Assembly (NCBI GenBank): GCA_902780935.1
Contig: CACZHP010000025.1
Span: 1 to 50,681, forward strand
Reading direction: 5' to 3'
DNA length: 50,681 nt
From: an uncultured Bacteroidia bacterium
Lineage (GTDB): Bacteria; Bacteroidota; Bacteroidia; Bacteroidales; UBA932
A program made the position numbers and the translations under genes. Below, in pieces: positions 5,087-38,196 of the stretch (position 1 is the first letter of the stretch; each line of letters starts with the position of its first letter). Under the pieces are notes generated by a model, which saw only the letters and a program-made list of their open reading frames with translations, did not search any database and was not told the origin of the DNA.

Positions 5087-5409
5087 ATTTCGGTTTCACT
5101 CTGGTCCCCAGTTCCAGGATCAATTTGGATCTCTTCGACAAGGAGAAGTACGAGGAGCTCGTGTCGATGGAGCCCGATGTACGGATTTGCATGGCGTGCG
5201 GAAGTTGCACGGCCGTGTGCACGGCCGGGAAGTTCGTCCATACGAGCCTGCGGGAGGCGATGGAGGACATATTCAACGCCAAGACGGACAATGCTTTGGA
5301 ATCTCTCCGGGCTTGCCAGCTTTGCGGGAAATGCGCCATGGTCTGTCCCCGGGGAATCAACACCAGGCATCTTATCATGTCGATAACTAAAGTATATTCA
5401 AAGAAATGA
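5080..5409 (+). CDS. Small second HdrC-like ferredoxin
   Basis: A 109-residue protein with two 4Fe-4S motifs (CMACGSCTAVC at ~37-47 and CQLCGKCAMVCP at ~76-87) and little else; it lacks the C-terminal extension of the larger HdrC-like gene upstream. It overlaps the HdrA gene by 7 bp and the next gene by 4 bp (ATGA junction), so translation is coupled. It probably docks the soluble Hdr module to the membrane fusion protein encoded next. Confidence 0.85.
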   Translation: MVDFGFTLVPSSRINLDLFDKEKYEELVSMEPDVRICMACGSCTAVCTAGKFVHTSLREAMEDIFNAKTDNALESLRACQLCGKCAMVCPRGINTRHLIMSITKVYSKK

Positions 5410-7424
5410 CACCTCTGGCGTATATCCTCGCGGCCCAGGCCGCCGATCCGGAGGTGATCGACAGGATACCTTCCGGTTTCAGCGCTTTCGTCCTTCCGTT
5501 CACCATTGGGGTGGCGTTCATGTTCAGTTGGATAGGAGTCGGCCTCATCAGGCTGCTCGCGGCTATTCCTAAGTCGGACCGCATCAAGTTCGCCAAGTCG
5601 CTTTTCATCCCCAAAACGGCTCTCAAGAATATCAAGGACCTTTTCTGCGACTGTCTGTTCCACACCAAAATATGGCAGCGCAAACCCCTTCTGGGCTATA
5701 TGCATTCGGCCATAGCCTTCGGCTGGTTCATGATCATAATCCTCGGACATATCGAGGTCGCCTTGTTTGTGCCGGCCAGACTCAATGTCGCGAGGGGAGG
5801 TCTGTTCTACCCCATTTTCTACCGGTATTTTGTCTGGATGAACCCAGGCCATACAACCTTGAGAGGAGCGTTCTTCTTCTTCCTGATGGACTTCTTCCTG
5901 TTGTACATACTCTCCGGCATCGCCCTGGCTATATTCAAGAGGTTCCGGTCCATAGTCCTTGGGATGAGGCACACCACAAAGCCTTCGTTGGCCGACCGTG
6001 TCGCCCTGTACAGCCTTTGGCTGATATTCCCCCTGAGACTTCTGGCTGAGAGTTTCACGGCTGACCTCAGCGGCGGTAGTTTCCTGACCGTCCCGGTCAA
6101 CCACTTCTGGCATTTCCTTTTCGGAGACAAGCTCTGGTTCATGCCATGCTGGTGGGCATATTCGATCTGCCTCGGACTTTTCTTCGCGGCCATGCCTTTC
6201 AGCCGTTACATGCACATCCTGACGGAGGTCTTGTGGATCCTGCTCCGCAATGCCGGAGTGGAGCCGCACCATCCCCGGAAGGGTGTCGCCGAGGCTGAGA
6301 TTTACGCTTGCTCGAGTTGCGGGTTGTGCCTGGACGCTTGTCCGATGAATGTGCAGAAAAAGAATCTCAAGTATTCGTCGGTGTATTTCATCAGGTTCTT
6401 GAGGAGACATAACGAGAAGAAAATCAACGCTATAGCGGACAAGTGCCTGATGTGCGACAAGTGTCACGCCCTTTGTCCGGTCGGAGTCAATGCCCCGTCT
6501 CTGCGCCGTGCCCAGCGAGCCACCGTCAACAACGCCCTCCCGTACGACTATTCCTACCTTTCGACTGTGGGTGCGACAGCTACCTCCGCCAGCACCCTTG
6601 GCCGCGCGACCGCCTCGCTTCGCTCGGCCCCACCGCTCGCTTCGCAAAGCGAAGCTCCGGTCCCCCCTCTTACAGTGCCGAGGGTGGCATGGGTCGCGCC
6701 GGCCAAGGTGCTGCCGGAGGCCACAAATAAGGTTCTTTATTTCGCGGGTTGCATGACGCATCTTACTCCGAGGATAATCAAGTCGGTGGAAAAGGTGTTC
6801 AAGACGGCGGGGGTGGATTATGTCTTCGCCGACAGGGATGGTGGAATCTGCTGCGGGCGGCCGTTGATGCTTGCCGGAAAGACAGAAGCTGCGGCAGCTG
6901 TAATCGAGGCAAACAAGAAGATGATCGAGGAATCCGGATGCGATACCCTTGTCCTTTCCTGCCCGATTTGCTACAAGATATTCAAGGAAGAATATCACCT
7001 TGAGGGGATCAAGGTGGTCCATTACACCCAGTTCATCAACGACCTCATCATCTCCGGCAAGCTTCCTGTCCAGGAGACGGACCGGAAACTTGTCTATCAC
7101 GATCCTTGTGAACTTGGAAGGGGATGCGGGGTGTATTATGAGCCCCGGGCCGCCCTGAAGCGGTGCGGCACTCTTGTAAAGGCTTCCAAGGAATATGACG
7201 AGAGCATCTGCTGCGGTGGCAGCCTGGGCAGTCTCACGCTGGACACCAAGGACCGCTCCAAGATTTCGGAAGCTTCGCTTGACAGCCTCCTGGCGAATGA
7301 TCCCCAGACCATCGTGACAGCCTGTCCTCTCTGCCTGAAGACCTTCTCGGAAGCTGTCTCCAACTCCAAAAATAGAGATATTAACGTTACAGTGAAAGAT
7401 TTTGCCGAGGTCGTTTGCCCATAG
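5406..7424 (+). CDS. Membrane cytochrome b / ferredoxin / HdrD-like fusion protein
   Basis: A 672-residue fusion. The first ~285 residues hold about five membrane segments with histidines suited to b-heme ligation (MHSAIAFGWF, NHFWHF, SRYMHILTE), like the NarI/DsrM/HdrE group. Two 4Fe-4S motifs follow (CSSCGLCLDACP near 302-313 and CLMCDKCHALCP near 347-358). The last ~225 residues are two complete CCG modules: C449, CCG near 482, CPIC near 519, then DPC near 568, CCG near 602 and CPLC near 640. The architecture equals DsrM+DsrK or HdrE+HdrD in one chain, so electrons could run between the quinone pool and a noncubane cluster. Odd: residues ~388-440 are an Ala/Ser/Pro-rich segment encoded by a palindromic repeat element (see 6583-6720), located in the linker between ferredoxin and CCG domains. 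Confidence 0.85.
   Translation: MTPLAYILAAQAADPEVIDRIPSGFSAFVLPFTIGVAFMFSWIGVGLIRLLAAIPKSDRIKFAKSLFIPKTALKNIKDLFCDCLFHTKIWQRKPLLGYMHSAIAFGWFMIIILGHIEVALFVPARLNVARGGLFYPIFYRYFVWMNPGHTTLRGAFFFFLMDFFLLYILSGIALAIFKRFRSIVLGMRHTTKPSLADRVALYSLWLIFPLRLLAESFTADLSGGSFLTVPVNHFWHFLFGDKLWFMPCWWAYSICLGLFFAAMPFSRYMHILTEVLWILLRNAGVEPHHPRKGVAEAEIYACSSCGLCLDACPMNVQKKNLKYSSVYFIRFLRRHNEKKINAIADKCLMCDKCHALCPVGVNAPSLRRAQRATVNNALPYDYSYLSTVGATATSASTLGRATASLRSAPPLASQSEAPVPPLTVPRVAWVAPAKVLPEATNKVLYFAGCMTHLTPRIIKSVEKVFKTAGVDYVFADRDGGICCGRPLMLAGKTEAAAAVIEANKKMIEESGCDTLVLSCPICYKIFKEEYHLEGIKVVHYTQFINDLIISGKLPVQETDRKLVYHDPCELGRGCGVYYEPRAALKRCGTLVKASKEYDESICCGGSLGSLTLDTKDRSKISEASLDSLLANDPQTIVTACPLCLKTFSEAVSNSKNRDINVTVKDFAEVVCP
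6583..6720. repeat. In-frame palindromic repeat element inside the Hdr fusion gene
   Basis: Imperfect 29-base inverted arms at 6583-6611 and 6692-6720 (one mismatch plus a compensating one-base gap on each side) flank an inner hairpin (7-bp stem 6639-6645 with 6649-6655, loop AAA). The right part, 6669-6718, recurs with 48 of 50 matching bases at 14167-14216 in the unrelated MATE gene. The element keeps the reading frame open and adds roughly 45-50 low-complexity residues to a linker. No transposase is linked. It behaves like a small non-autonomous palindromic element tolerated inside coding sequence. Confidence 0.8.
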
Positions 7425-13508: not shown

Positions 13509-14897
13509 TCATGCCCTGCCCAGAATCGCGGTCTTGTATTTAAGTGTCTGATAGGCTGATCTGTAGATTAGGTGTGCGTAGTAGGCGGCGAAGAGCAGGT
13601 GCACTTTGGCGTCCAGGCTTAACTGGGAGCCTGTCGTCCGGGAGATGAGGATCCCGCCGAACCAGATGATGAAAAAGGCGATAAGGCATCCTATATTGGC
13701 GTCCCGCATGTCTTTGGTCGCTGTGGCGCCAATATATATTCCGTCCCAGGTGAATGCCGGGCAGCCAAGGAGAGGCATGATGACAAGCCAGGGCAGATAG
13801 GCTTTGGCGGCTTGGATGACCGTGTTGTCCGAGGTCATCAGGCGAAACATCGGCGTCCCTGCCGCGGCGTATAGGAACACGAAAAGCATCCCGATGCCCA
13901 TGCTCCAGATAAAGGTCCATTTGACTGTCTTGGAGACGGCATATTTGTCCCTGCGACCGACAAAACGGCCTGTGAGCGCCTCGCCGGCGAATGCGAAACC
14001 GTCCGTGAAGTAGGAGAATATCATCATGAGTTTCATCATGATGGAGCACATGGCGAGGAGGGTGTCGCCGAAGCGGGCCGAGATGGCGGTGAACGCCAGG
14101 TACACGGCCATCAGGCACAGCGACCGCACGAACAGGTCCCCGTTCACGCTGAAGAACTCCCTCATACTTACAGTGCCGAGGGTGGCATGGGTCGCGCTGG
14201 CCAAGGTGCTGTCGGACGCAGCACCATGCCGCAGAAGTAGGCGGTATTTAAGCGTGAAGATGATGGCGGCGGTGAGGAGGCCGGAGTACTGGGCTATGAA
14301 AGTGCCCCAGGCGATTCCGGTGAAACCGATCCCGGAAAAGGATGTGCCGGGCACTCCGAGGGCTAGCAGGATGCTGGCGACGATATTCATCCCGTTGACC
14401 ATTATGTCGGTCAGCATCGAGGAAAAAGTGTCCTGCATCCCGATGAACCACCCTCTCATCACCATCAGGCACAAAGTGGCCGGAGCTGCCCATATCCTGA
14501 TATAGAAGTACTTGAGAGCCAGCTCCATGACTTCATCAGAGCACTGCACGAACACGAACATCAGCTTTTGGAATGGCCACTGTACCGCTATCAGGACAAG
14601 CGCTGAGACAAGAGCCGCTCCAATCGCATGCCGGAGATTCTGAAGACAAGCTTCCCAATCTTCCCTGCCATAGGCTTGTGCAGTTAGCCCTCCTGTACCA
14701 GCCCGCAGGAAGCCGAAGTTCCAGTACAGCATATCGAACATCAGCGAGCCTACCGATATGCCCCCGATCAAGGCCGCGGCGGAGGTCTCCAGATGCCCGG
14801 CTACGGCGATATCGACCAGACCGACCAGCGGAACGGTCAGGTTCGCCAGGATGCTCGGTAGGGCGAGTCTCAATATCTCCTTGTTCAGATGTCTCAC
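13509..14897 (-). CDS. MATE-family efflux transporter
   Basis: A 462-residue polytopic membrane protein with about 12 hydrophobic segments. The start (EILRLALPSILANLTVPLVGLVDIAVAGHL) and the symmetric second half beginning MREFFSVNGDLFVRSLCL are typical of the NorM/DinF MATE family, which exports drugs or metabolites using a Na+ or H+ gradient. Residues ~225-245 (SDSTLASATHATLGTVS) are an unusual insertion in the loop between the halves, just before MREFF; the DNA for it is the antisense reading of the 50-bp repeat also found at 6669-6718. It overlaps the flippase gene by 4 bp and is the last gene of the minus-strand operon starting at ftsE. The substrate is unknown. Confidence 0.93.
   Translation of the reverse strand: MRHLNKEILRLALPSILANLTVPLVGLVDIAVAGHLETSAAALIGGISVGSLMFDMLYWNFGFLRAGTGGLTAQAYGREDWEACLQNLRHAIGAALVSALVLIAVQWPFQKLMFVFVQCSDEVMELALKYFYIRIWAAPATLCLMVMRGWFIGMQDTFSSMLTDIMVNGMNIVASILLALGVPGTSFSGIGFTGIAWGTFIAQYSGLLTAAIIFTLKYRLLLRHGAASDSTLASATHATLGTVSMREFFSVNGDLFVRSLCLMAVYLAFTAISARFGDTLLAMCSIMMKLMMIFSYFTDGFAFAGEALTGRFVGRRDKYAVSKTVKWTFIWSMGIGMLFVFLYAAAGTPMFRLMTSDNTVIQAAKAYLPWLVIMPLLGCPAFTWDGIYIGATATKDMRDANIGCLIAFFIIWFGGILISRTTGSQLSLDAKVHLLFAAYYAHLIYRSAYQTLKYKTAILGRA
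14167..14230. repeat. Second copy of the in-frame 50-bp repeat, in the MATE gene
   Basis: Bases 14167-14216 match 6669-6718 at 48 of 50 positions (both differences are C/T). The copy here ends in a compact hairpin, 14205-14211 with 14219-14225. The gene is on the minus strand, so this copy is translated in the opposite orientation from the one in the Hdr fusion, and both readings are open. It adds roughly 20 residues at the interdomain loop of the transporter. Confidence 0.85.
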
Positions 14898-35215: not shown

Positions 35216-36475
35216 ATGAAGAAGTCCAGCGGTAGCCAGGTTTTAAGAATGCTCAGTTTGTTCTCCGGGTGCGGGGGAATGGATCTGGGCTTTGAAGGGG
35301 AATTTGTCTGTCATAGGAAATCTGTCCCCTCCGATTCTGGATGGATTGAGAAGGCCATTGACGGGGATTGGGTGATGCTGAAAAAGAACAGGTTCGAGAC
35401 GGTTTTCGCCAATGATATTCTCGAGGAGGCCTGCCTGACATGGAATCAATACATGAGCCGTTTCGGGAAGGATCCGTCCATCTATCATCTTGAAAGTATA
35501 GTTGATCTTGTCAAACGCCACCGGGCTGGTGAAAAGGTGTTCCCTGAGGGAATCGATTTAGTCACAGGCGGTTTCCCTTGTCAAGACTTCAGTGTTGCGG
35601 GCAAAAGGTTGGGCTTTGAGTCGCATACTTCGCATGATGGCACAAAACTTCCACAGGAAGTGCCTTCGGAGGAGAACCGCGGGAAGCTTTATTTCTGGAT
35701 GAAGCAGGTGATAGACATCGTCAAGCCTAAAATCTTTATCGCTGAGAATGTCAAAGGCTTGACCAATCTTGGGAATGTGAAGGAAATCATCCAGCGGGAT
35801 TTCGCCCAGGCGGACGGCGATGGTTATATTGTCTTGCCTCCAAGGGTCCTTCACGCTGGTAACTATGGAGTGCCGGAAACCCGCGAGAGGGTGATTTTCA
35901 TTGGAATACGACGCTCGGCTTTGAAGAGAGAGGTCTGCGCTGCCATGGAAAATGGCGATATTCCTGCCGAATATGACCCTTATCCCGCGCAGACGCATAA
36001 ATACACAAAAGACTCAACGGGGGACCTTCCGTTTGTCACTTGCAGGGATGTGTTCGAAGGCCTTAAAGAGCCGGAAGAATCAGACGATCTTTCACAGCGT
36101 TTCTATTCCAAGGCCAAGTACATGGGTAAGCACTGCCAAGGCCAGGCGGAGATCCATCTCGACGGCCTCGGACCCACTATCCGTTCGGAGCATCACGGGA
36201 ACATCGAGTACCGTAGGTTGTCAGCCCAGCATGGTGGCAAGATGACGGAGGAATTGGAAGCAGGACTTCCCGAGCGTCGTCTCACTCCGAGGGAATGCGC
36301 TCTGATCCAGACATTTCCGCCAGATTATCCCTTTGTCTCCCACAAAGAAAACAGCAAGCGTTTCAAAGTCTCCCAGTCCGGAGCCTACAAAGTCATCGGC
36401 AACGCCGTGCCTCCGCTCCTCGCCTACAACATAGCCCGCCGCCTCCAGACCCTCTGGCCTATCTATTTTGGATGA
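35216..36475 (+). CDS. dcm: DNA (cytosine-5)-methyltransferase
   Basis: A 419-residue C5-methyltransferase. Motif I is LFSGCGGMDLGF (SAM binding, ~15-26), motif IV is GGFPCQDFS with catalytic C122, motif VI is ENV (E177), motif VIII is QxRxR-like (NYGVPETRERVIFIGIR), and motif X lies in YKVIGNAVPPLLA. The region between motifs I and IV carries a longer insertion (~28-75). With the nuclease and Vsr genes downstream it forms a type II restriction-modification system, in which it protects the host site; the recognition sequence cannot be read from the protein. Confidence 0.95.
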   Translation: MKKSSGSQVLRMLSLFSGCGGMDLGFEGEFVCHRKSVPSDSGWIEKAIDGDWVMLKKNRFETVFANDILEEACLTWNQYMSRFGKDPSIYHLESIVDLVKRHRAGEKVFPEGIDLVTGGFPCQDFSVAGKRLGFESHTSHDGTKLPQEVPSEENRGKLYFWMKQVIDIVKPKIFIAENVKGLTNLGNVKEIIQRDFAQADGDGYIVLPPRVLHAGNYGVPETRERVIFIGIRRSALKREVCAAMENGDIPAEYDPYPAQTHKYTKDSTGDLPFVTCRDVFEGLKEPEESDDLSQRFYSKAKYMGKHCQGQAEIHLDGLGPTIRSEHHGNIEYRRLSAQHGGKMTEELEAGLPERRLTPRECALIQTFPPDYPFVSHKENSKRFKVSQSGAYKVIGNAVPPLLAYNIARRLQTLWPIYFG

Positions 36476-36593
36476 TCTTTCAAATTGAGTTGATAGTGCG
36501 TTTGGGAAATTGTTTGAGTATGAATATGTTATGTTAATCTGTTGCGAAAATGTCCGCTTTTTAATGCCGTTGTTTTCGTGGTGTGTTTTTATA

Positions 36594-36607
36594 GATTGTT
36601 GACAATC
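36594..36607. promoter_or_regulatory. 14-bp palindrome upstream of the restriction nuclease gene
   Basis: GATTGT-TG-ACAATC is a perfect 6-bp inverted repeat with a 2-base centre, in the 172-base gap between methylase and nuclease. The half-site TTGACAAT recurs at 36638-36645, next to the nuclease start. It could be an operator for timing nuclease expression, but no control-protein gene is present here. Confidence 0.3.
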
Positions 36608-36647
36608 AAACTATTGGGTTAATTGAGCATCTTTCGGTTTGACAATT

Positions 36648-37697
36648 ATGGTTGGTGATATAGAATTAAGAGCTTTTCAGCAATTGATTGACTCAGTGTT
36701 AGTAACTCTTAATGAGAAGGCGGCCAAGGAGATAAAGAGATTCAAAGGGATGTCTCCTTCAGACTTGGAAGTCGAAGTGTTTCAGACTATAAAAGACGCT
36801 TGTGGTGAGGAATCTTTTTTCCAGAAAGATGAAGTAAAGTTGGTCTCCGGGATGAGATTTCCCGATATTCTTGTAGGGAGAAACTTCGGGATTGAAGTAA
36901 AATCGACAAATAAAGACCATTGGACTTCGACCGGAAGCAGTATCGTTGAGAGCACAAGGGATAAAGATGTCGAATGTATTTATTTGTTGTTTGGTAAACT
37001 TGGCGGTGACATTCCGGAGTTTCGCTGCCGGCCATATCCAGATGTCCTGTCTGAAGTGGCTGTGACGCATTCTCCAAGGTATCGGATAGATATGACACTC
37101 GGGGCAGGTGAGACTATCTTCGATAAGATGGGAGTTTCTTATGAGGACCTTCGCTCCTCAAAAAACCAGATAGCAGCTGTCCAAAACTATTATCGGAAAA
37201 TGGCGTTAGTTGAGGGCCATCAGATGCCATGGTGGATATCGGATGATAAATCGGCTGATTCGTCGGTGGGCATGAACATCCGTTCTTGGAGAATCCTTTC
37301 AGCCAATGAAAAATCCAATTTGGTCGCTCAACTTCTTGTGTTATTTCCTGAGGTAATATTCGGTGATTATGAGAATGCGGCCATGTGGTTGGTAAGCGTC
37401 CAGGGAGTCGTTTGCACAAATCTTAGGGATCCTTTTTCGGCTGGAGGACAAGTAAGACAGTTGAATGGTGTGATGTTGGATTCCCCAATGCCGCATATTG
37501 TAAAAACCATTTCTGACAAATATCCTCTGATCGTTTCTCTGCTGAAAGACAAGGACTTCCTTGATCAAATCTCAGCGTTTAATCCAGGTTTGCTTCCTGA
37601 CGTGACCAGTAGGTGGATTGAACAAGTCCAGTCATCACTAAGTCGTGTCGGTGTCAACATACCTGTCAAGTGTTTGTTCGAAGAAGGTTTAATGTAA
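36648..37697 (+). CDS. Type II restriction endonuclease, PD-(D/E)xK fold
   Basis: About 349 residues from ATG 36648 (a TTG nine bases upstream is the alternative start). The nuclease core is clear near residues 72-85: FPDILVGRNFGIEVKST gives P-D-x9-E-x-K. The remainder has no recognised domain. The gene is distinctly AT-rich compared with its neighbours and lies between a C5-methylase and a Vsr endonuclease, so it is the restriction partner of that methylase. The AT-rich composition and insertion among housekeeping genes suggest acquisition by transfer. I do not recognise the subfamily or cut site. Confidence 0.8.
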   Translation: MVGDIELRAFQQLIDSVLVTLNEKAAKEIKRFKGMSPSDLEVEVFQTIKDACGEESFFQKDEVKLVSGMRFPDILVGRNFGIEVKSTNKDHWTSTGSSIVESTRDKDVECIYLLFGKLGGDIPEFRCRPYPDVLSEVAVTHSPRYRIDMTLGAGETIFDKMGVSYEDLRSSKNQIAAVQNYYRKMALVEGHQMPWWISDDKSADSSVGMNIRSWRILSANEKSNLVAQLLVLFPEVIFGDYENAAMWLVSVQGVVCTNLRDPFSAGGQVRQLNGVMLDSPMPHIVKTISDKYPLIVSLLKDKDFLDQISAFNPGLLPDVTSRWIEQVQSSLSRVGVNIPVKCLFEEGLM

Positions 37698-37704
37698 AGG
37701 TTAC

Positions 37705-38196
37705 ATGGCGGACAGGATGACTCCGGAGCAGCGGCATCGCTGCATGGCCAGCATCAAGGGGATTGACACACGACCCGAGATGAAGGTCAGGCGTTATCTC
37801 CATGGGTTAGGTTTTCGCTATTCGCTTCATTCAAAACGACTTCCAGGTAAACCGGATATTGTGCTTCGGAAGTATCATTCGGTGATATTCGTTCATGGAT
37901 GTTTTTGGCATGGGCATCCTGGCGAGTCCTGCTACAGGAAACCCAGCACAAACGTGGAGTTTTGGGAGGAGAAAATCCGGCGCAACAAGGAGCGTGACGC
38001 CGCGGACGTGGCCGCCCTTGAGGCTCTTGGATGGCATGTCATAATTGTCTGGGAGTGTGAAGTTTCCAAGAAGCGGTTCGAGGAAACCATGAGCGGTGTG
38101 GTCAAAGATCTCCATAACTATCTTGAAGTGGAGCACATTCACCATATTCCTCCATCAGTCAGGAGATTGTCTAATCAGGATTCCTCTGAAATGTAG
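37705..38196 (+). CDS. vsr: Very short patch repair endonuclease Vsr
   Basis: A 163-residue mismatch endonuclease that nicks next to T:G mismatches left when 5-methylcytosine deaminates, protecting the genome from the linked C5-methylase. The signature start MTPEQRHRCMASIKGIDTRPE, the active-site GKPDIVLRKYHSVIFVHGCF with the WHGH zinc-binding region and the C-terminal WHVIIVWECEV are all present. It starts 7 bp after the nuclease gene. Confidence 0.96.
   Translation: MADRMTPEQRHRCMASIKGIDTRPEMKVRRYLHGLGFRYSLHSKRLPGKPDIVLRKYHSVIFVHGCFWHGHPGESCYRKPSTNVEFWEEKIRRNKERDAADVAALEALGWHVIIVWECEVSKKRFEETMSGVVKDLHNYLEVEHIHHIPPSVRRLSNQDSSEM

Follow-up and report, generated by a model that had tools for sequence, protein, structure and literature searches.

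A palindrome lying in frame within a gene of the Bacteroidales genome studied here probably belongs to a family of non-autonomous, hairpin-forming elements of ~120-145 bp, restricted to one genus, which spread through these genomes, are tolerated in coding sequence, and have their arms rewritten and their core flipped by template switching. Copies of the element are dispersed and inserted in frame, sister genomes are free of it at orthologous sites, and each copy carries private, self-complementary arms. We also observed concerted change of the paired arms at an orthologous site, an inverted palindrome at the same site in a relative, and partial losses.

The window copy and its host gene

In the window (the whole stretch of 50,681 nucleotides that was analyzed), positions 6583-6720 form a 138-bp imperfect palindrome, in which 29-bp arms surround an 80-bp core within one open frame. 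The inverted arms placed at 6583-6611 and 6692-6720 by an earlier note on this DNA were recovered exactly (29 nt, 83% complementary, 80 nt apart), and the inner hairpin that it described, CGCTTCGCAAAGCGAAG, was located at 6638-6654, the sole match in the window at up to two mismatches (0.00 expected by chance). The continuous reading frame claimed there is a single frame of 672 aa (5406-7424) that spans the element. The described position between the ferredoxin and CCG domains also holds, with the element lying between the Fer4 (residues 299-361) and CCG (443-524) Pfam matches, and the Ala/Ser/Pro-rich stretch is seen in the translation. The host gene is presumably an Hdr gene, as both the earlier reader and we have labeled it. 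The features are as follows.

5406..7424, + strand: host gene, a membrane / 4Fe-4S ferredoxin / CCG-domain (HdrD-like) fusion of 672 aa (ORF; Pfam Fer4_8 299-361, CCG 443-524)
6583..6720, + strand: entire palindromic element, 138 bp, in frame (arm pairing, fold, dispersed copies; orthologues without the element)
6583..6611, + strand: left arm, private, with ~24 bp in common (by eye) with the copy in a MatE-family gene (arm comparison)
6612..6691, + strand: conserved 80-nt core (genome matches; 80/80 identical in G058)
6638..6654, no strand assigned: inner hairpin of the core (motif search, fold)
6666..6688, + strand: part of the core retained by weaker matches in relatives, CCTCTTA-N4-GCCGAGGGTGGC, used as scan pattern (relatives' matches)
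6692..6720, + strand: right arm, complementary to the left arm (arm pairing)
14167..14219, + strand: remnant of a second copy, comprising the 3' part of the core and the right arm, within a MatE-family gene at 13509-14897 on the - strand (genome search; the G017 orthologue holds a full copy)

Folding of positions 6575-6728 was compared with dinucleotide shuffles, and none of 200 shuffles was as good in any of three settings: RNA on the + strand (z -5.64), DNA on the - strand (z -6.75) and RNA on the - strand (z -5.74). The half copy at 14167-14219 was absent from the earlier note. Among the copies compared, and outside orthologues, the arm of the Hdr copy was common to this MatE-family gene copy ~7.4 kb away, which is half deleted in the window. 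Elsewhere in the window (35216-38196), genes for a C-5 cytosine DNA methylase and a Vsr endonuclease stand in a row with an ORF lacking a Pfam match between them, and are likely a restriction-modification unit.

Copies dispersed through the genome

A search of the organism's own genome (G000; 3.05 Mb in 82 contigs; other G numbers denote the other genomes compared) with window positions 6560-6740 as query returned 45 matches. At E <= 1e-3 there were 33, which correspond to 31 distinct places (the query and the window's half copy among them), as two copies were each split over two rows. The core, whose recurrence the earlier note had made a check on its reading, was conserved across these copies and the flanks were not. 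The earlier note had called the element mobile and non-autonomous. Dispersed copies without an element-encoded protein fit that description, but mobility itself is something we infer, because no mobilizing enzyme was identified.

Nineteen of the 31 places lie inside Pfam-matched reading frames. There were 25 candidate host frames, 20 of whose proteins were scanned with Pfam, all with matches; the element lies inside the frame in 19, and the 20th, a RecQ-like gene, overlaps it only at the gene's end. The hosts include PurH, chorismate synthase (AroC), IspH (LytB), a GHMP kinase, B12-dependent methionine synthase (MetH), a KsgA-type dimethylase, RsmF, TrmO, QueH, FtsK, a 2-oxoacid dehydrogenase acyltransferase, an LptF/G-formyltransferase frame and two GH3 enzymes. 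In alignments to solved structures, AroC shows a break at the insert, from residue 238 to residue 289, and PurH is covered along its whole length, with extra query residues at the insert.

The remaining two + frames of the window copy are open too, so stop codons do not dictate which frame is used. Even so, in the organism's own genome all ten + copies in Pfam-matched genes read one frame, giving sequence of the TASLRSAPPLAS..VPRVAW type, and seven of nine - copies in such genes share one frame index, giving sequence of the HATLGTVRGG.. type; the other two belong to a divergent subfamily. A wider set of 104 named loci contained 106 matches, with 62 in a spanning ORF, 40 not and 4 at edges. With the edge matches set aside, the linker frame was used by 22 of 33 + copies and 17 of 29 - copies within ORFs, a count made with a simple ORF rule; some off-frame ORFs may be spurious. 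The frame preference is thus clear and not absolute, and is weaker in the named loci than in the organism's own genome. The element is probably tolerated in coding sequence because a stop-free frame in either orientation encodes a flexible Ala/Ser/Gly/Pro-rich linker suited to the variable loops of proteins.

Intergenic copies in this genome (L025-L027, L030-L032) often have shorter cores of 58-77 nt with GCCGCTTCGCGGC as first hairpin, and the in-gene type usually has 80 nt, which suggests separate intergenic and gene-dwelling subfamilies. Other repeats were also encountered. A third short repeat around TCGCTTCGCTCCGAGT (L010:2751-3626, L021:1604-3901 and the L013 region) lies in frame inside or adjoining other inserts and encodes, for example, SERSDAGSLRGTPLSPP or STPLHPLGGLRGVPLR. 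The insert loop of the LptF/G-formyltransferase frame (L016:744-3347) also holds the peptide PVILSEAKDL, and the sequence that codes for it, CCTGTCATCCTGAGCGAAGCGAAGGATCTC, looks like yet another repeat.

Distribution among genomes

The element matched 12 of 41 genomes, its own included, at E <= 1e-3, and none of the 16 from other families. At E <= 1e-6 it matched 41 of 151 sampled genomes of the genus, again counting its own. In a sample of 393 genomes from across the order, which included two or more further members of the genus, the sole match was the own genome (0 of 392 others). An exact-pattern scan of genome contigs found at least 117 stretches. All 80 of the matches listed were titled Bacteroidales or Bacteroidia, many as ruminant metagenome-assembled genomes, and no Rickettsiales origin was met among them. 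An assembly artifact was ruled out, because the family recurs with different arms and at different sites in many separately assembled genomes.

Orthologous sites and partial losses

The segment is absent from orthologues of the Hdr gene, RsmF, TrmO, QueH, PurH and IspH, so that this check named in the earlier note, like that on the recurrence of the core, came out in favor of its reading. The loop of the Hdr gene has 55 residues in the own genome and 19 and 17 in G013 and G008, and in G017 and G049 a different palindromic repeat occupies that place. For TrmO, the loop spans 63 residues in G000 and 1-3 in eight of ten other genomes, with the exceptions of G058 (9 residues, a scar) and G106 (48, filled). 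The QueH loop has 45 residues in G000, 3-4 in eight of nine others and 11 in G088. The RsmF loop has 53 residues in five genomes including G000 and 10-18 in four, with longer inserts in G049 and G088; G008 gave no pair in this comparison. The sites are variable loops, several of which have been hit repeatedly, and copies occur in several species at RsmF, AroC, IspE, MetH, an aldehyde dehydrogenase-like gene and the Hdr gene.

Remnants of the element were also found. The MatE-family gene holds a half copy both in the window and in G058, and in G058 a 21-bp palindromic scar lies in TrmO, a single arm is left in IspH and the 3' half in IspE. Coreless sister sites that resemble deletion scars (TrmO and IspH in G058, MetH in G106) cannot prove the state of a site before insertion.

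TrmO in G058 and, less exactly, MetH in G106 have coreless palindromes, which would also be seen if the core homed into the loops of pre-existing hairpins, so that the private arms were host palindromes. We consider this very improbable and already disfavored, since most element-free sister genomes show no palindrome at the examined sites (by eye). Furthermore, the TrmO palindrome includes arm sequence common to element copies elsewhere, and is therefore more likely a scar of the element.

Arms private to each copy

To describe the arms, each left arm was scored against its own right arm and against the right arms of other copies, using copies with the conserved 3' motif and dropping identical ones and those near a locus end. 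Mean pairing with self versus cross was 22.4 vs 6.9 in G000, 21.7 vs 6.3 in G017 and 23.3 vs 6.7 in the named loci, a set drawn from the 104 loci that includes records of G017, G058 and G106. The 95% level of cross-copy pairings was reached by 29 of 29, 15 of 15 and 101 of 103 copies, respectively. Unlike the conserved core, the arms are private: they pair with their partner in the same copy and not with those of other copies, so each copy seems to have its arms rewritten separately. A fixed arm length (a "ruler" of ~29 nt) was rejected, as lenient scoring gave means of 35-38 with standard deviations above 8.

A second palindromic repeat served as control. At 12 loci its self and cross means were 12.05 and 12.18, with 0 of 12 above the cross 95% level; its arms are common to its copies, so private arms are not general in this genome. 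This repeat has 22 matches in the own genome (for example L011:3150-3260 and L076), arms of the form GCCGGA..TCCGGC and peptides like EPGRVHSRFAAAEYGL or YSAAAKREWTRPGS. It also occurs in frame in ksgA, and is found at the same loop of the G017 Hdr gene.

The arms at the RsmF site changed in step. Among five orthologues, related sequences for which the structure was taken from one member, 95% of arm cells pair. Five pairs were altered on both sides, a number reached in 4 of 500 shuffles, and 8 cells were doubly changed against a shuffled mean of 2.8 (0 of 500 shuffles). Sliding the partner by 1-3 columns lowered pairing to 31-54%. Further pair types were not above shuffles in this set (7 vs 6.2; 185 of 500), and one doubly changed pair, in G106, had not retained pairing. 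In addition, one intergenic copy occupies a matching position in G000 and G017 (L030 vs L155), with two differences in the core and with arms that have changed and are still paired (by eye).

Inversion in place

The Hdr palindromes of G000 and G058 match at 134 of 136 bases in reverse orientation only, with a core identical at 80 of 80, and the host flanks align in direct orientation, with matches at 144 of 167 bases on one side and 163 of 180 on the other. IspE, IspH, AroC, CitG, LptF and PurH also have a site that is occupied in opposite orientations, which may reflect independent insertion instead of inversion.

A core that is 80/80 identical between G000 and G058, next to aligned host flanks differing by 9-14%, together with the strong fold z-scores on both strands and the paired changes of the arms, could indicate a structured regulatory element in RNA or DNA, the compensatory changes resulting from selection for an mRNA or DNA hairpin. 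This explanation is quite unlikely. The copies lie in unrelated genes, in both orientations and even in opposite orientations at the same site, and sister genomes manage without the element. A known structured RNA was likewise rejected: no Rfam family matched any of 8 loci at the gathering threshold, and three sub-threshold matches fell around the window copy only.

Probable template switching and the origin of the arms

Spread followed by template switching is the reading that we prefer. After insertion, and perhaps during it, the stable hairpin would make the replication fork switch templates between the arms. Such a switch would copy each arm onto its partner, may extend the arms by a few bases taken from the host flank, and would occasionally flip the core, which may be kept as the part needed for spreading. 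Arms would therefore drift as pairs while the core is kept. Template switching at imperfect palindromes is described as homogenizing inverted-repeat arms and inverting the spacer, coding DNA included (PMC8604942), and reportedly gives rise to RNA hairpins and maintains them (PMC8794818). Both hallmarks, arm homogenization and spacer inversion, are present here as patterns, and it is from these patterns that we infer the process; no transposition was observed and no mobilizing enzyme found. Selection on RNA or DNA structure would give paired changes too, and G000 and G017 have other arms at the IspE site, which also counts against the preferred reading.

Some features of the arms could instead date from insertion itself. 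In an alternative that is possible but not probable, the private arms would be built as the element inserts, the hairpin end being extended by copying of the host flank into an inverted target duplication, and template switching would only polish them later. At IspE, which also counts in favor of the preferred reading, the left-arm sequence GGGGGTACTACTGCCCCG is present in coreless G162 and, with changes, in coreless G106, G065 carries a near reverse complement of GGGGGTACTACTGCCCCG on the opposite side, and the right arm is nearly the reverse complement of its own left arm in the filled G065, G049 and G088. In CitG, one arm aligns with coreless G000. In AroC, G000 is set apart from G058 by the insert and by a short stretch of flank repeated in inverted orientation, with microhomology of TTGGT (by eye). 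Some copies share a common inner arm of ~21 bp and differ in the outer 6-9 bp (by eye). At seven sites, 4-24 nt of the palindrome are not accounted for by the inserted length, which would be expected had the host already contained a short stretch of it; genomes with other inserts or scars were excluded from the sister mean in this comparison, and the length of the G106 TrmO palindrome was taken by eye.

However, at most of these seven sites sister genomes are missing nearly all of the palindrome, and the genomes compared are more distant than a near-isogenic pair with and without the element would be. At the intergenic copies L023, L024 and L026 (G000 vs G017), neither arm is found in the coreless genome. 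Coreless CitG in G000 and coreless AroC in G058 may be deletion relics, because more distant genomes have shorter loops. With these outgroups, neither can be relied on as a clean ancestral empty site, and the copying of flanks was demoted to a rival explanation. The stronger form of the proposal, in which a mobile core makes its terminal repeats anew at each site by inverted copying of the target flank, as a private inverted target duplication that is not inherited from the donor, appears doubtful. If it were true, terminal repeats made anew would represent an insertion chemistry unlike that of known insertion sequences, MITEs and REP elements.

Y1 transposases

The earlier note had seen no transposase nearby, and none was recognized in 39 ORFs of the window scanned with Pfam (the ones that we took for genes out of 75 with 130 aa or more; 6 had no Pfam match). 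A genome-wide search for transposases covered the Y1 family (PF01797), which bears on the idea that the element is hairpin DNA mobilized in trans by a resident Y1 HUH transposase of the RAYT/TIRYT type. Hairpin DNA is a known type of substrate for these enzymes (PMC3733652). Y1 matches (E <= 0.01) were present in 17 of 20 genomes of the genus, 15 of them over the Pfam cut-off, and the three genomes without any match (G013, G018 and G022) were also without a core match. Presence of Y1 did not clearly track the core in the groups as we chose them, being found in 10 of 10 genomes with clear core matches but also in 7 of 10 with few, weak or none. Only one of 23 Y1 loci holds a core copy, inside the neighboring ksgA, and three of 16 loci with a Y1 ORF of at least 150 aa (L343, L349 and L358) have matching hairpins on either side that bear no relation to the element. 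Given the unclear tracking, and Y1 genes with hairpins of their own, the Y1 transposase is not supported as owner of the element, and mobilization of this kind is unlikely.

A Y1 transposase gene of ~315 aa adjoins ksgA in the own genome (L037) and lies within ~4 kb of ksgA in G106, G049, G088 and G017. Hairpins with GGTAGAnTCTACC flank this gene, upstream in G000 and on both sides in G017 (L343). The ksgA-linked gene may be a vertically kept RAYT/TIRYT.

Relation to known elements

Selfish palindromes inserted in frame are best known from Rickettsia, and coding palindromes in Wolbachia are reportedly a comparable case. The Rickettsia palindromic elements (RPEs) are described as dispersed palindromes of 100-150 bp, in frame in many unrelated conserved genes (PMC10969869, PMC2229807). 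The element described here resembles them as a 138-bp long stem-loop in frame in many unrelated conserved genes, but differs, in a comparison made by description and not with RPE sequence, in its phylum (Bacteroidota), its inversion in place and, as far as the descriptions go, its private arms. Furthermore, its arms change jointly and stay paired, in contrast to the loss of repeat identity over time that is reported for Rickettsia elements (PMC6649704). By analogy, the element appears to work like the RPEs, and we do not class it as one. No report of such elements in Bacteroidota was found in listings of open-licence papers.

REP/REPIN sequences and TIR repeats with RAYT/TIRYT are likewise dispersed hairpin DNA, REPs inside genes have been reported (PMC3733652), and Y1 transposases are present in the genus. 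In this case, however, the element is ~138 bp long and the Y1 genes examined carry other hairpins. The window core has no GTAG/CTAC tag of the REP type, the aligned copies share no tetranucleotide at the arm ends, and flanking of a RAYT gene as in REP/REPIN was not seen, the core copy at one of 23 Y1 loci being the one in ksgA. Like MITEs (ERIC, Correia and RUP), which are described as making occasional in-frame fusions (PMC10969869, PMC2229807), the element is small and non-autonomous with inverted arms, but these arms are not a common terminal repeat, as they pair within and not between copies. Target sites showed short microhomologies only (for example TGGT at AroC), with no consistent duplication by eye. 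Template switching at quasi-palindromes shares with our case the homogenization of arms and inversion of spacers in coding DNA (PMC8604942), and the coding palindromes of Nematomorpha mitochondria share the presence of palindromes within translated genes (PMC6649704). The text available from these two sources describes no dispersed element with a conserved core.

A lifestyle like that of the RPEs appears here in a species-rich genus of Bacteroidales. The element occupies core enzymes, its copies number in the dozens, and many sister genomes are available to compare. The private, co-changing arms and the inversion in place provide a natural system in which the rewriting of arms by template switching could be measured directly, and the same system would allow the growth of protein loops by selfish DNA to be measured. 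It also carries a warning, in that an odd Ala/Ser/Gly-rich protein insertion in these genomes can come from dispersed repeat DNA and should not be assumed to be a functional domain.
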